A DNA stretch of 32,051 nucleotides from NCBI GenBank assembly GCA_025363655.1, contig JANYDK010000030.1:1-32051 (forward strand). Direction: 5' to 3'. Numbering within the stretch: position 1 is the stretch's first letter; each line of letters starts with the position of its first letter. This document shows positions 12,714 to 32,051 of the stretch, piece after piece. The position numbers and the translations under genes were made by a program. Source of the DNA: Deltaproteobacteria bacterium (GTDB taxonomy: Bacteria; Myxococcota_A; Polyangia; Polyangiales; JADJMO01). The notes beneath the pieces were generated by a model, which did not search any database, was not told the origin of the DNA, and saw only the letters and a program-made list of their open reading frames with translations.

Positions 12714-12754
12714 TGTGCGTGCCGCCGCGAGGACAAGCCGTTGCCGGTCTCTCG

Positions 12755-12821
12755 TTTCGCCAAAGATTGCTTCGCAACTTTGGCCGCTTCGGTCAATCTC
12801 GCTCCGCTCGGTTGCCGAAGC
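12755..12821 (-). repeat. 67-bp two-hairpin intergenic repeat, copy 1
   Basis: The reverse complement of this segment matches 31927-31993 over 67 bp with one mismatch. The element holds two hairpins. One has arms GCTTCGG/CCGAAGC about 22 nt apart. The other has arms GCCAAAG/CTTTGGC extended by TTGC/GCAA around a 3-nt loop. The single difference between copies lies in that loop. This copy begins one base after the stop of the SET-domain gene and fills the gap to the lipoprotein gene. Confidence 0.9.
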
Positions 12822-13223
12822 TCATTTCACCTCGAACCACACCGGCCGTCGGTCGCCGATGCCGCCGTTGTAGCTGACGGTGATCTCTTCGCCGGCGGCG
12901 ATGTCACGCAGGGCGACGAAGGCGATGGTGCGGAGGGCGACCTTCTTCACGTACATCGCGTTCGGATCGTGCGCGTGGTTGTAGAGGCTGCCGTAGCCGA
13001 GGGCGATCGCCGAGGCGTCGCCGGTGCCTCCCCAGACGAAGTGGTAGGACTGGAGCACGGTCGCGCAGACGTGGGCGAGCTCCTCCGTCGGAATGACCAC
13101 CACCGGAACTTCCTCGATCAAGGTGCCGCCAGCGATCGGCTCGGTGGCGAAGACGCCTCGTCCGCGTCCCTCGGACTCACGCACTTCGATCGACTGCGGG
13201 GGGCGTAGCGCCTCCGGCTCCAT
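12822..13223 (-). CDS. SET-domain protein, putative lysine methyltransferase
   Basis: 133 residues, essentially a bare SET domain. Motifs in order are GRGRGVFATEPI (SAM-binding N-terminal strand), YGSLYNHAHDPNA (the NHxxxPN motif that forms the pseudoknot and contacts SAM) and AGEEITVSYN (the GEExxxxY motif with the catalytic Tyr). It lacks the Cys-rich post-SET region. The family transfers methyl groups from SAM to protein lysines; the bacterial substrate is unknown. It is divergent from the Gre-like gene with only 24 bp between start codons. Its -10 candidate TATACT lies 9 nt before the ATG. Confidence 0.88.
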   Translation of the reverse strand: MEPEALRPPQSIEVRESEGRGRGVFATEPIAGGTLIEEVPVVVIPTEELAHVCATVLQSYHFVWGGTGDASAIALGYGSLYNHAHDPNAMYVKKVALRTIAFVALRDIAAGEEITVSYNGGIGDRRPVWFEVK

Positions 13224-21417: not shown

Positions 21418-22443
21418 CTACTTCGCCGACGCGCTCGCCGACGGTTTCGGAGCTGCGCTCGCGCTCGGGACGGGCTTGGCGGAAGCGCTGCCGCTCGCCG
21501 AGGCAGAGGCCGTCGGCATCAGGCCCGGAGGCGGCGGATCGATTTGGATCAGCGTCACGTCGAAGACGAGCATGCCCGCGGGCGCGCCTGGCTTGCCCTT
21601 GTAGGCGAGGTCTTGCGGGATCCAGAAGCGGCGGGTCTCGCCTTCGACCATCAACTGAACACCTTCGGTCCAACCGGCGATGACGCCGTCGAGGGGGAAG
21701 GCGATCGGCTCACCGCGGGTGACCGAGCTGTCGAACATCTTTCCGTCGGTGGTCCAGCCCGTGTAGTCGACCTTGACCGTGCTCGTCGACTTCGGGTGCG
21801 CCTTGCCGGTGCCCTTCTTGATGACCATCGAGGCGAGGCCGTCCTTCTCCTTGGTGGCGGAGGCGGGCGGCGCGGCGACGTCGGTGGGCGCGGGGATCGG
21901 CTTCGGGGCCTTCTTGATCTCGAGGAGCTCGACGTCGAAGACGAGCATGCCCGCGGGCGCGCCGGGCTGACCTTTGTAAGCGAGCGCTTCCGGGATCCAG
22001 AAGCGGCGCTTCTCGCCGGCCACCATCAGCTGCACGCCTTCGGTCCATCCGGGGATGACGCCGTTGAGCGGGAACGAGATCGGCTTGCCGTGCACGACCG
22101 AGCTGTCGAACATCTTCCCGTCGGTGGTCCAGCCCGTGTAGTTGACCTTCACGGTGTCCTCGGCCGCGGGATGATCGGCTCCGGTGCCCGGCGTCAGCAC
22201 CTTCGACGCGAGCCCGCTCGGAGTCTTCACCGCATCGGCCGGAGCCGCCGCGACGTCGGCCGGAGCCGGGAGCGCGCCCGGAATGTCATGATTGCTCGCG
22301 CTCGGGGACGCAGTCGGCCGGAACGCCGTCGTCGACGCGGGCGGATCGGATTTGACGCTCAGATCGGGCGGACCCTTCTCGCAGGCGGCGAGGATCGGGG
22401 AGGCGAACGCGAGGAAAGGGATCAGCGCGAGGAGCTTCTTCAT
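21418..22443 (-). CDS. Lipoprotein with two tandem FKBP-type peptidyl-prolyl isomerase domains
   Basis: 341 residues from ATG 22443; the frame is open further upstream but MKKLLALIPFLAFASPILAAC is a clear lipoprotein signal with Cys21 as the anchor. After a Pro/Ala/Ser linker come two FKBP domains (about residues 78-180 and 205-308). They are very similar: both contain VNYTGWTTDGKMFDSS or VDYTGWTTDGKMFDSS, GVIPGWTEGVQLM or GVIAGWTEGVQLM, RRFWIP and GAPAGMLVFDV. The DNA copies are offset by about 375 bp, a recent internal duplication. A Ser/Ala/Pro tail ends the protein. It probably helps fold envelope proteins. The upstream gap is shared with the divergent glycosylase gene. Confidence 0.93.
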   Translation of the reverse strand: MKKLLALIPFLAFASPILAACEKGPPDLSVKSDPPASTTAFRPTASPSASNHDIPGALPAPADVAAAPADAVKTPSGLASKVLTPGTGADHPAAEDTVKVNYTGWTTDGKMFDSSVVHGKPISFPLNGVIPGWTEGVQLMVAGEKRRFWIPEALAYKGQPGAPAGMLVFDVELLEIKKAPKPIPAPTDVAAPPASATKEKDGLASMVIKKGTGKAHPKSTSTVKVDYTGWTTDGKMFDSSVTRGEPIAFPLDGVIAGWTEGVQLMVEGETRRFWIPQDLAYKGKPGAPAGMLVFDVTLIQIDPPPPGLMPTASASASGSASAKPVPSASAAPKPSASASAK

Positions 22444-22493
22444 GCGGGAGAGGGAAAAAGCACGGCTACGCGAGCGGGACAAGCCGGCTTGGG

Positions 22494-22499
22494 TAAGAT
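22494..22499 (+). promoter_or_regulatory. TAAGAT -10-like hexamer, 7 nt before ATG
   Basis: TAAGAT is followed by GGCGGGG and ATG 22507. The hexamer overlaps an earlier in-frame ATG (22498), which argues that 22507 is the real start. GGCGGGG could also act as a weak ribosome site for a longer transcript. Confidence 0.4.
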
Positions 22500-22506
22500 G
22501 GCGGGG

Positions 22507-23454
22507 ATGAAGAAGGACGCGGCTGCGCCCGAGCACGCGCTCCGGGTCGTGCACTCCTTCACACGTAAAGGTCTCGGCGCTGCTTACGACCTCGCGCTGC
22601 AAGTGCGCCCACGCGACGCCCTCGCCGTCGTTCGCGGGGATCCCGATCCCGTCGTCCTCCGCTTCACGGCCGCGCCGAGGGGCGCCACCGTCGACATCCT
22701 CGCGGCCCGTCCCCTCGACGACGCCGACGTGACATCGCTCGAACATGTCGCTTCGGGACTCGCGGGGCTCGGCGACGATCCGGGAGACTTCGCCGATCGC
22801 GTGTCATGTTCGACGCTCCTTCGCGAGCTCCACGGGCACTTCCTCGGCGCGCGCATGACACGTACCGTCACCGTGTGGGAGTCGCTGGCGACGGCGATCA
22901 TCGGGCAGCTCGTGACGTGGATCGAAGCGAAGGACGCGACCCGTCGGATGATTCGTCGCTACGGCGCCCCCATCGCCCACACCGAGCTCCGCGCCTTTCC
23001 CACCGCCTCGTCCATCGCCGCCGCCGCTCCCGCCGACCTGCGCGCGCTCGGCGTCGGAATGCGTCGCGCCACCACCTTGGTCGCCTGTGCCCGCCTCGGC
23101 GCCCGCATCGAGAAGCTCGCCCACCTCGCGATCGACGACGCGATGAAGTGGCTCGTTTCCTTGCGTGGCGTCGGCCCTTGGACGTCACAGACCGTCGCCA
23201 TCGAAGGCCTCGGCCACCCCGATGGCGTCCTCGTCGGCGACGCCGGCGCCCCGTTCGTCGTGACGATGGCCCTCACGGGAGTCGCCGGAGATGACGCCCG
23301 CATGCTGGAGGCGCTGGAGCCGTTTCGCCCGCATCGCGCGCGGGTGCACAAGCTGCTGGGGATGGGGAGCCGATTGCCAGGAGGATTGCCGGGGGTACCG
23401 AGGAGGCCGTTGCCGACGGTGGATCCGCATCGGAGGTGGCCGGGGCGGGGTTGA
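22507..23454 (+). CDS. AlkA-like DNA-3-methyladenine glycosylase (HhH-GPD)
   Basis: 315 residues. The helix-hairpin-helix is LVSLRGVGPWTSQTV (about 216-230), followed by the Gly/Pro region and the catalytic-type Asp at 245 (VLVGDAG). Upstream, VWESLATAIIGQLV (about 123-136) is the conserved helix of this superfamily. Such enzymes remove alkylated bases from DNA in base-excision repair. Ending GRG*, the last about 30 residues are Pro/Arg-rich and probably disordered. Two TGTCATG words lie within the gene (22802 and 22854), one encoding VSCS. It is divergent from the FKBP lipoprotein and is followed 44 bp later by an unknown gene. Confidence 0.87.
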   Translation: MKKDAAAPEHALRVVHSFTRKGLGAAYDLALQVRPRDALAVVRGDPDPVVLRFTAAPRGATVDILAARPLDDADVTSLEHVASGLAGLGDDPGDFADRVSCSTLLRELHGHFLGARMTRTVTVWESLATAIIGQLVTWIEAKDATRRMIRRYGAPIAHTELRAFPTASSIAAAAPADLRALGVGMRRATTLVACARLGARIEKLAHLAIDDAMKWLVSLRGVGPWTSQTVAIEGLGHPDGVLVGDAGAPFVVTMALTGVAGDDARMLEALEPFRPHRARVHKLLGMGSRLPGGLPGVPRRPLPTVDPHRRWPGRG

Positions 23455-28788: not shown

Positions 28789-31700
28789 TCAACCGCGACG
28801 ACGACGACGCGCCGCGACGAACGCGATCGCGCCGGCCGCTGCGAGCCAGACGACGTTGCTCGGCGTGGTGTGCGAGCCGCCGACCACGGTGCAATTGCAA
28901 GCGCCGTCGTCCTCGGCGACGGGGACCTCGCCCGCGTCACCTCCGTCGATGCTGGCGTCGTCGCTGGCGTCCGCGCCGCCGTCGGTCTTGCCGCTGTCGG
29001 TCTTCGCGTCGGCCGCGTCGGCGCCAGCGTCGGTGCTGGTGTCGGTCGGTGTCACGTCGGCGCCTGCGTCGGTCGTGTCGGCAGCGGCGTCGCTCGCACC
29101 GTCGTCGATCGTGTCATGTGTCTCGTCGGCGTCCGACGTGACATCGCCGGCGTCGCCACCATCGCCACCGTCGTCGATCGCGCTGTCGGTCGTGTCGGCG
29201 ACGTCGGAGCCAGCATCGGTCGTGTCGGGCGGGACGGCGGTGTCAGCCGTGTCGGCCACGTCCGCGGTGTCGGCAGTGTCTGCGGTATCCGCAGTGTCGG
29301 CCGTATCGGCGGCGTCGGTGCCGGCGTCGGCATCGGCGTCCGAACCGGCATCGGTGCAGGCGCCGGCATCGCTCGGCGTGCCCGCGTTGCAGGTGCCGCT
29401 GCCGTTGCAGGTCTCGAGCCCGTTGCAGAGGTTGCCGTCGTCGCACGAGAAGCCGCTCGACTGCGGCGGGAACGAGCACCCGCTGGCGGGGATGCAGTTG
29501 TCGGACGTGCACACGTTGCCGTCGTTGCAGACGAGCGTGATGCCGGCGGTGCAGGCGCCCGAGCCGTTGCAGGTCTCGAGCCCGTTGCACTTGTTGCCGT
29601 CGGTACAGGACACGCCGGCGCCGACGTTGGAGTGCTGACAGCCGAGCGCCGACTCGCAGGAGTCGGCGGTGCAGGGGTTGCCGTCGTCGCAGGAGAGCGC
29701 GGTGCCCGCGACGCAGGCGCCGGAGCCGTTGCAGTGTTCGACGCCGTTGCAGGCGAAGCCGTCGCTGCAGGTGGTGGTGACGGGCGAGCCGACGTTCTTG
29801 CAGCCGGAGGCCGGGTCGCAGGAGTCGTCGGTGCACGCGTTGCCGTCGCCGCACGAGAGCGGCGTGCCGGTGCCGCACGCGCCCGCGCCGTTGCACATCT
29901 CGACGCCGTTGCAGGCGTTGCCATCGGAACATGACACCGTCGACGAGACCGACGTGTGCTGGCAACCCAACGCGACATCGCAGGAGTCGGCGGTGCAAGG
30001 ATTGGCGTCGTCGCAGGAGATCGCGGTTCCCGTTCCGCAGCCGCCGGCGCCGTTGCAGGCCTCGACGCCGTTGCAGGGGTTGCCGTCCGAACATGACACG
30101 GCGCCGCCGAGGTTGGTGTGCCCGCAGCCGGTGACCGTGTCGCACGAGTCGGCGGTGCACACGTTGGCGTCGTCGCAGGAGAGCGCGGTGCCGGCGGAAC
30201 AAGCGCCTGAGCCGTTGCAGGTCTCGGCGCCGTTGCAGACCGTGCTGTCTGGGCAAGGCGTACCGGGGCTCGGGGTGAAGGTGCACCCGGTCGCCGCTGC
30301 GCAGCCGTCGGTGGTGCAAGGGTTGGTATCGGTGCACGTCGGCGCCGTTCCGGCGACGCACGTTCCGGCCGCAGTGCACGTCTCGTCGCCGTTGCACTTG
30401 TCGGTGTCGGGACAGGCGCTGCCGGCCGTCTTCGGGTCGCACGAGTTGAGCGCGCCGCAGGTGTAACAGACGCCCTTCGCCGAACAATCGCTGGCCGCGA
30501 CACAATTGACGCCGAGATCGGCGAAGTCGACGCTGCAATCGTCGGTGTCCGCGGTGGTCGTGGTGCGCGCGAGGACCTTGTCGGAGCCCGGCGTTCCGGT
30601 CTTCGACGTGATGCCGGCGTAGACGCCCGTGCCGTAGACGACGACGTCGATGAGCTGCGTTTTGCCGTCGAAGAGCAGGATTTCGTCGCCGCCATTGGCG
30701 AGCGCCCAAGCGCCCGGCGAGGCGGTGAATCCAGTGTACTTCGTCAGGTCGGGGGTCAGCGGATCGTTGGTGCCGGCGACGAACTCCGCGTCGGCGCGTT
30801 TGCCGAAACGGGTGAAGTAGTCGCCGCCGTTCTGCGCGATGACGAGGCTCGCGCCCGGCGTCAGGGTCGTCCCGCTCGGGAGCGAGTACATGCTCTCGGT
30901 GCCGTTGATGGTCTCCTCGTCGCCGATGCGATAGCCGCTCAGCGACACGTTGTTCGGGGACACGTTGGTGATCGCCACCCATTCGGCGTTGGCCGTCGGC
31001 GTCACGGGCGCGGCGACGAAGCGGTTGATCGCGATGGGTGCGTAGACCTCGCCGTTCGTGTCGAACGTGACATCGGCCCAGAAGTCGATGACCTGATCGG
31101 ACACCTCGGCGAAAGTGTTGGGGACCGCCGCCAGCGTCGGGTTGCCGTTGTCGGTCACCACGTCGAGCGCGTTGGAGACCGTGGAGTCACCGATCGACGC
31201 GGTGTTGCCGCTGCCGTCCTCGCGGAACGTGGCGACGGTGAAGCGAAGCGGCGTCGTCGGCGGCGCGGAGAGCCCGAGCTGCGCCCAGGTCACGAACATC
31301 TCGACGTTGGTGCTGCTGGCGCTCGCCCCGAGGGAGGTGGTGACGCTGCCTACCGTTGCGAAGGACTTGTCGAGGAGGCGCGCGGTCGTCGCTCCCGACT
31401 GGGTCTGCACGAGGTATTCCCAGCGCGCGGCGTCGTTCACCTTGGTGTCGGCGAAGCCGGCGAGAAAATCGGTGCCGCTGCCGGCCGCGCGATCGGTGTC
31501 GATCGCCACCTGCACCTGGAGCGGACCGGAGGCCGTTCCTGCCGTCTTGACGAGGATGGCGAGGCCCGTCGACGTGGCCGTGTATTGAACTTGGCTGATG
31601 TCTGCGAGCGTCTCGGCGGCCGGAGAGGAGAGATCGGTGCGGGAGTCGCCCGCCGCGTCGAAGAAGATGTATTCGCCGGTGCCGCCGGCAGCGCGCGCCG

Positions 31701-31839
31701 TGATGCCGAGGTTGCGCACCACGGTGGTGCGCGCGGACCAATCGGTCACCAACCCGTCGACGGTGACCGAGTGGGCCGAGGCGCTGGCAGCGCCGAAGAG
31801 GAGCGTGGCGAGGGTGGCAAAAGCGACCGGTTTCCGCAT
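28789..31839 (-). CDS. Surface protein: CBM9-like domain, lamin-tail domain, Cys-rich repeats, MYXO-CTERM tail
   Basis: 1016 residues. A signal peptide (1-22) is followed by a CBM9/DOMON-like beta domain (about 25-250, opening VDGLVTDW) and a lamin-tail domain (about 283-426: EWVAITNVSPNNVSLSGYRI ... GGDEILLFDG). The Cys-rich region (about 433-825) has seven units containing CNGxExCxGxGxC, each preceded by CxDxNxCTxDxC; it resembles Dickkopf-like repeats common in myxobacterial secreted proteins. An Asp/Ala/Thr stalk (about 826-980) includes seven TAD-type triplets. The end is Cys-Asn-Cys, a hydrophobic helix (NVVWLAAAGAIAFVAA) and RRRRRG, a MYXO-CTERM-type sorting signal. The protein is therefore probably processed by a myxosortase and displayed on the surface. 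TAACGA, an imperfect -10, lies 6 nt before the ATG. Confidence 0.93.
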   Translation of the reverse strand: MRKPVAFATLATLLFGAASASAHSVTVDGLVTDWSARTTVVRNLGITARAAGGTGEYIFFDAAGDSRTDLSSPAAETLADISQVQYTATSTGLAILVKTAGTASGPLQVQVAIDTDRAAGSGTDFLAGFADTKVNDAARWEYLVQTQSGATTARLLDKSFATVGSVTTSLGASASSTNVEMFVTWAQLGLSAPPTTPLRFTVATFREDGSGNTASIGDSTVSNALDVVTDNGNPTLAAVPNTFAEVSDQVIDFWADVTFDTNGEVYAPIAINRFVAAPVTPTANAEWVAITNVSPNNVSLSGYRIGDEETINGTESMYSLPSGTTLTPGASLVIAQNGGDYFTRFGKRADAEFVAGTNDPLTPDLTKYTGFTASPGAWALANGGDEILLFDGKTQLIDVVVYGTGVYAGITSKTGTPGSDKVLARTTTTADTDDCSVDFADLGVNCVAASDCSAKGVCYTCGALNSCDPKTAGSACPDTDKCNGDETCTAAGTCVAGTAPTCTDTNPCTTDGCAAATGCTFTPSPGTPCPDSTVCNGAETCNGSGACSAGTALSCDDANVCTADSCDTVTGCGHTNLGGAVSCSDGNPCNGVEACNGAGGCGTGTAISCDDANPCTADSCDVALGCQHTSVSSTVSCSDGNACNGVEMCNGAGACGTGTPLSCGDGNACTDDSCDPASGCKNVGSPVTTTCSDGFACNGVEHCNGSGACVAGTALSCDDGNPCTADSCESALGCQHSNVGAGVSCTDGNKCNGLETCNGSGACTAGITLVCNDGNVCTSDNCIPASGCSFPPQSSGFSCDDGNLCNGLETCNGSGTCNAGTPSDAGACTDAGSDADADAGTDAADTADTADTADTADTADVADTADTAVPPDTTDAGSDVADTTDSAIDDGGDGGDAGDVTSDADETHDTIDDGASDAAADTTDAGADVTPTDTSTDAGADAADAKTDSGKTDGGADASDDASIDGGDAGEVPVAEDDGACNCTVVGGSHTTPSNVVWLAAAGAIAFVAARRRRRG
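29236..29330 (-). repeat. Short tandem repeat encoding the Asp/Ala/Thr stalk
   Basis: About seven near-identical 9-bp units (GTGTCGGCN on the plus strand) encode ADT triplets in the stalk of the surface protein. Such arrays vary in length easily. Confidence 0.7.
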
Positions 31840-31926
31840 CCGGCCTCGTTAGCGTGCAGAGCCTCGCGCATCACTTGCCCATTCGGCCATTCTGTCCATG
31901 GTCCCGCCCCACACCGGCGACATTTT

Positions 31927-31993
31927 GCTTCGGCAACCGAGCGGAGCGAGATTGACCGAAGCGGCCAAAGTTGCGCAGCAATCTTTGGCGAAA
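31927..31993 (+). repeat. 67-bp two-hairpin repeat, copy 2
   Basis: Matches the reverse complement of 12755-12821 with one mismatch, located in the loop of the second hairpin. Hairpin arms are 31927-31933 with 31956-31962, and 31964-31970 with 31983-31989. It starts 87 bp upstream of the surface-protein gene start. Confidence 0.9.
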
Positions 31994-31999
31994 TGGAAT

Positions 32000-32051
32000 G
32001 CTTCGACAACCGAGCGGAGCGAGATTGACCGAAGCGGCCAAAGTTGCGCAG
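32000..32051 (+). repeat. 67-bp repeat, copy 3 (cut by window end)
   Basis: The first 52 bp of the element recur 73 bp after the start of copy 2, with one change (CTTCGAC for CTTCGGC) in the first hairpin arm. The sequence runs off the window, so the tandem array may continue. Confidence 0.85.

Follow-up and report, generated by a model that had tools for sequence, protein, structure and literature searches.

A dispersed two-hairpin, REP-like repeat that adjoins stop codons in a deltaproteobacterial genome

A 73-bp unit recurs in the window

What is the short two-hairpin repeat that lies in inverted and tandem copies in a 32,051-nt stretch of deltaproteobacterial DNA (the window, contig C61 of the assembly G000), and how could such a repeat spread? 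An earlier note had described a 67-bp element at 12755-12821 that returns inverted at 31927-31993, and our comparison bears this out, since 66 of the 67 positions are identical. The single difference (GCGAAGC versus GCGCAGC) does fall in a loop, as had been claimed, being the middle base of the hairpin-B triloop, that is, the N of its cap. The further copy with a 73-bp period was also found: 32000-32051 is a third copy, 73 bp on and ended by the contig end, with an additional G-to-A change in stem A. While the presence of the repeat was thus confirmed, its length of 67 bp had to be corrected. The true unit is 73 bp long (AGCTTCGG...CGAGA; 12750-12822, minus strand), and exact 73-74 bp matches to copy 1 exist elsewhere in the genome. 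The features of the three copies are as follows.

12750-12822, minus strand: copy 1, the full 73-bp unit (AGCTTCGGCAACC...GAAACGAGA), matched by the covariance model R1 at 12752-12823 (102.7 bits) and by other sites in the genome
12786-12821, minus strand: hairpin A of copy 1, with a 7-bp outer stem, a bulged A on the 3' side, a 3-bp upper stem, a CGAG/CGAG interior and a GCGGAGC cap (from fold and covariation)
12759-12784, minus strand: hairpin B of copy 1, with a 7-bp outer stem, a bulged T on the 3' side, a 4-bp upper stem and a GCGAAGC cap (from fold and covariation; core AGTTGCGNAGCAATCT)
12750-12758, minus strand: conserved, unpaired 3' tail GAAACGAGA
12822-12824, minus strand: TGA stop of the adjoining SET-domain gene, the final A of which is the first base of the element
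12822-13223, minus strand: gene that precedes copy 1 on the same strand, encoding a 133-aa SET-domain protein (PF00856, 59.6 bits)
31926-31998, plus strand: copy 2, a complete unit with a GAAATGGAA tail, the first of a tandem array
31927-31962, plus strand: hairpin A of copy 2
31964-31989, plus strand: hairpin B of copy 2, with the cap GCGCAGC
31999-32051, plus strand: copy 3, with the 73-bp period, ended by the contig end; the array probably runs on into contig C48

Rfam gave no matches in the window at the gathering threshold. Other repeats in the window are five 162-bp direct repeats at 29332-30249 (65-76% identity to the reference copy), which represent a 54-residue protein repeat and fall within a 1016-aa minus-strand reading frame (28789-31839), and two 241-bp copies at 21541-22156, 84% identical and 375 bp apart, around a 442-aa minus-strand gene (21418-22746).

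The element is abundant in its host and nearly confined to the host lineage

The host assembly is a 9.0 Mb draft of 150 contigs, 96% complete. BLAST gave 51 matches to the element in this genome, mostly at 95-100% identity where full length, and a strict core pattern gave 55 matches, compared to none for the reversed-pattern control; the matches are not due to chance. Using the covariance model R1, which was built from 52 copies (alignment A1), at least 151 copies were found, and they are present in both orientations across the genome. The copies first noticed in the window are therefore accompanied by many others.

The same model detected seven divergent copies in the relative G002 and two in G004, and none in the relatives G001 and G003. 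Note that the E-values of these home-made models are rough. Of the hairpin-B core AGTTGCGNAGCAATCT there are 82 occurrences in the host genome and four in one sister-genus genome, and it is absent from the 182 other genomes of the order. A second model, of 74 more divergent copies, added one copy in the genome G123, which belongs to a different family within the order; this single, full copy (L194:1501-1571, contig C246; 65-71 bits) could be the result of horizontal transfer or contamination. A match in Neobacillus, from a wider contig scan that otherwise returned the sister genome only, lies within coding sequence and was judged to be chance, and the viral contigs searched gave no match to the element. 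The element is nearly confined to the host lineage.

Two hairpins of one plan with compensatory changes

Hairpins A and B lie one base apart on the same strand (GCTTCGG...GAAACGA) and are built to a common plan: each has an outer stem of about 7 bp, then a single base bulged out on the 3' side, and an upper stem that carries a GCGNAGC cap. In hairpin A, CGAG also stands opposite CGAG, and these could form tandem G-A pairs. For the RNA fold, the z values of the two strands were -5.0 and -3.9.

The outer stems vary with compensation between subfamilies. The pairs CTTCGG/CCGAAG (59 full copies) and GTCCGG/CCGGAC (about 18) are accompanied by TTTCGG/CCGAAA, GCCCGG/CCGGGC and CTTCCG/CGGAAG, among others. 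In alignment A1, two-sided changes were present in 7 of the 24 pairs, a value reached by none of 500 shuffles, with 0-2 pairs in the slid controls. In alignment A3, which was fitted to the covariance model and therefore leans towards structure, they involved 19 of the 24 pairs and 115 cells, again with none of 500 shuffles reaching this level and with 6-14 pairs and 9-20 cells in the slid controls. Compensatory changes among the copies are thus many. Neither of the two outcomes that the earlier note had named as refuting it, a lack of further genomic copies and a lack of compensatory changes, was therefore obtained.

Positions left out of Watson-Crick pairing are also conserved: G15, A16, G24 and A25 are nearly fixed (124-127 of 127 copies), and the freely varying positions are both cap Ns, in the triloops, and the hairpin-B bulge. 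An intact GCGNAGC is found in hairpin A of 97 of the 127 copies, in hairpin B of 110 and in both hairpins of 85. As DNA, mini-hairpins with a GNA loop (GCGAAGC, for example) have an exceptionally high stability (PMC4686876). Since a DNA energy model gave equal stability for both strands and hence does not separate them, our argument about the strand is drawn from the conservation of the cap and CGAG motifs and from the published GNA-loop data. These suggest that the strand with the GCGNAGC caps acts as single-stranded DNA, as its complement would not carry the GNA loop.

A REP-like element and the search for its transposase

The earlier note had proposed a REP-like or MITE-like element, and the many dispersed copies, the hairpins, the intergenic placement at gene 3' ends and the compensatory changes all agree with this proposal. 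Because its dispersal, its bulged and capped hairpins on one strand and its docking at gene ends resemble those of REPs, we think that the element is probably a non-autonomous, REP-like mobile ssDNA-hairpin element, composed of two head-to-tail hairpins and moved in trans by a Y1/HUH-type enzyme. Mobility is deduced here from the dispersal of the copies in one genome of the genus.

A linked REP-associated transposase (RAYT), which had been anticipated, was not found. The host genome has one Y1_Tnp protein (138 aa, contig C70, Pfam 72.9 bits), scoring above the NCBIfam cut-off as IS200-type and below it as REP-type. We first assumed that this protein was the cognate transposase, and then rejected it: its gene (L035:4270-4930, about 53270-53930 on C70) is bordered on both sides by perfect 63-bp inverted repeats (GGGACCGCGGGCTAGAAGCCCACGGCATCGAGATCTTCAAGACCCGGCTTCGCCGGGCTTCGC) that are unrelated to the 73-bp element and occur only twice in the genome. 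The likeness to TIRYTs is consequently that of the C70 transposase unit, not of the 73-bp element. No element was found in the 9 kb around this gene, nor near any of 11 Y1 genes in four family relatives. A mobilising gene may be unassembled, in an assembly that is 96% complete and whose contigs break at arrays.

Could the element nevertheless truly belong to the GTAG-REP/RAYT (REPtron) system, the cognate RAYT having been lost or left unassembled? GTAG REPs in other bacteria supply TAG stops and adjoin gene ends, and the loss of a REPtron with persistence of its REPs has been described (PMC3733652). As occurs with GTAG REPs, REPINs and BIMEs, the genome contains more than 100 dispersed intergenic palindromes, near gene 3' ends, often supplying a TAG stop, sometimes in tandem clusters, and in sequence types that differ in their stems (PMC3733652, PMC2817692). 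The same kind of placement and clustering, together with the one Y1 transposase in the genome, would fit such membership. However, GTAG or GTGG is present within 4 nt of a hairpin foot in only 13 of 130 copies and is not conserved, the hairpins form a fixed direct pair, and the resident Y1 gene lies, as in TIRYTs, between unrelated inverted repeats that exist in two copies only. Unlike GTAG REPs, the element is 73 bp long, has two direct hairpins one base apart with GCGNAGC caps in both, and lacks both the conserved tetranucleotide tag and a RAYT flanked by the repeat. Membership is a separate claim, and on this evidence a possible but rather unlikely one. In the broad sense of a REP, the element is a high-copy dispersed palindrome, mainly extragenic and towards gene 3' ends, but with two adjacent hairpins in 73 bp instead of one in 20-40 bp; it appears to be a new relative of the known REP repeats, one with two hairpins.

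Other known systems resemble this REP-like element in part. CGTC REPs are likewise dispersed in the manner of REPs while having no dedicated transposase linked to them (PMC3733652). They have a CGTC tag, 8-9 bp stems and 4-5 base loops and occur mostly as head-to-head dimers, whereas the element has bulged outer stems of about 7 bp, triloop caps, the tail GAAACGAGA and head-to-tail arrays, and so falls outside this group. With the ends of IS200/IS605 elements and the non-autonomous elements derived from them, it shares imperfect bulged hairpins (the known ones are recognised as ssDNA) and a left and a right hairpin flanking the unit; in contrast to them, its two hairpins enclose no transposase gene, and it has no demonstrated cleavage or guide motif.

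Copies adjoin stop codons without truncating genes

By gene calls from a codon-usage script trained on these loci rather than a standard annotator, 15 of 140 distinct copies overlap genes. In 38 of the 62 usable cases with an upstream gene pointing towards the element, the 5' edge of the element lies between -4 and +3 nt from the stop codon, while uniform placement in the same gaps gave a mean of 11.2 and a maximum of 20 in 2000 trials. Edges that face start codons showed no spike, as none of the 48 was found at 3 nt or less from the start. A TAG or TGA stop can be completed by the AG with which the unit begins, and since this AG can thus complete a T, TAG is in excess at the abutted stops (19 of 39, compared to 74 of 311 overall; p = 0.002). 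A simple TGA/TAG target was rejected as the whole explanation, as the bases preceding copies away from stops look random (TAG in 6 of 90).

Truncation of genes by insertion was also discarded, because the C-termini reach the ends of family profiles and orthologues. The proteins of abutting genes, among them thiolase, ParB, serine hydroxymethyltransferase, phosphogluconate dehydrogenase and a ClpB-type protein, extend to the ends of their profiles or close to them. The parB orthologues of four relatives, from sister genera, stop at most one residue away from the same position, at a TGA and without the element, and glyA is likewise free of the element in three relatives, in two of which it ends at the same residue. 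Purifying selection alone is no obvious explanation for a contact with the stop codon that is exact to the base.

This exact placement after stop codons would also fit a regulatory RNA of mRNA 3' ends, acting by ribosome stalling, 3'-end protection or 3' processing and spread by gene conversion as useful. In support of this, the RNA fold is strong, copies are enriched in convergent gaps (22 of 111, versus 6% of intergenic bases), and in E. coli a lowering of translation has been reported for REPs that lie no more than 15 nt from a stop codon (PMC12306157). Orientation with respect to the upstream gene, however, is near-even (64:53, p = 0.36), and 20 copies lie between divergent genes, in gaps that are mildly depleted. 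The structured RNA suggested by the earlier note thus keeps its fold but is weakened as the main function, and an RNA effect could be additional, arising after insertion, rather than the cause of the spread. We consider a regulatory RNA to be an unlikely origin of the family.

Tandem arrays and exchange of hairpin A

Units repeat head-to-tail, and contigs break at the arrays. Nine of the ten tandem pairs of near-full copies that were measured are 94-100% identical within the pair, versus 84% between loci, and several pairs have private changes in common, such as an extra T in both units at C70:85656-85801. These similarities speak for local duplication. The array at the end of the window (31926-32051) and the start of contig C48 have a private GAAATGGAAT variant in common: the window contig stops within a GAAATGGAAT-variant array and C48 starts with one. 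The repeat therefore continues beyond the window, as had been suspected, and the window contig and C48 are probably adjacent in the genome. A GCTAAACGTGC variant is likewise common to contigs C35 and C70.

Hairpin B and its GAAA tail were also observed after short unrelated hairpins, at L138:1428-1477 and L124:971-1024 (CGTCTCGCCAATGAGACG; GTCACCGAGCTTGGTGAC). In the sister genome (L059:1450-1650, G002:C780), an 89-bp tandem unit contains hairpin B (GCGAGAGTTGCGAAGCAATCTCTCGC) after a different hairpin, and this composite begins directly at a stop codon (TGAGGGGCGGAGC). In that genome, a larger composite repeat with TGAGGGGCGGAGC at its start was considered and dropped, having only 4 exact copies. 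Since other hairpins precede hairpin B and the GAAA tail in the sister genus and in some copies of the element, hairpin B looks like a constant module, which suggests that hairpin A is exchangeable. A more specific model would be a two-hairpin ssDNA element with an insertion preference for stop codons, its first bases rebuilding the stop, moved by a non-RAYT enzyme that recognises the bulged GCGNAGC hairpin B and the GAAA tail as its constant module, with hairpin A exchangeable; in this full form we regard the model as speculative and quite unlikely.

Short, dispersed and non-coding, the element could in principle also be a MITE that belongs to an ordinary insertion sequence, of DDE or other type, the full-length partner of which is missing from the draft assembly and, as contigs break at arrays, could be unassembled. 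However, neither terminal inverted repeats nor target duplications were recognisable in the flanks of occupied sites, and the unit termini tend instead to have a short direct repeat in common (AGCTT or CTGTC). Moreover, no longer element with its two halves apart was seen, the half matches adjoining full copies, and this explanation appears improbable to us. Finally, although the hairpins lie directly 3' of genes and are enriched between convergent ones, the repeated intrinsic transcription terminator that the earlier note had also considered is hardly credible, as the GC-rich hairpin followed by a T run is not found (TTTT in 5 of 130 tails) and there is no terminator-like site around copy 1.

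A model for the spread of the element

The loops and stem irregularities of folded single-stranded hairpins are the features by which TnpA-REP and IS200/IS605 enzymes recognise them (PMC8266576). For the REP-like, trans-mobilised element that we favour, we propose a comparable route. When the strand GCTTCGG...GAAACGA becomes single-stranded, during replication or repair, both hairpins would form. A putative Y1/HUH-type enzyme, supplied in trans, would recognise the bulges and the d(GCGNAGC) caps, cut beside the hairpins and join the single strand elsewhere, and replication would turn the new copy double-stranded. Insertions would persist mainly where they spare the genes. Most of all this would apply to stop codons, at which the unit's first AG can complete TAG or TGA, so that selection would be the cause of the stop-codon bias. 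Inserted units would then amplify locally to give the tandem arrays.

These results extend REP-like elements to an uncultured deltaproteobacterial lineage without an explanatory linked transposase. For the question of how REP-like repeats spread, this family offers more than 150 copies in one genome, with many natural compensatory mutants. With two hairpins of the same plan and near base-exact docking at stop codons, the rules of recognition and the cause of the stop-codon preference become directly testable.
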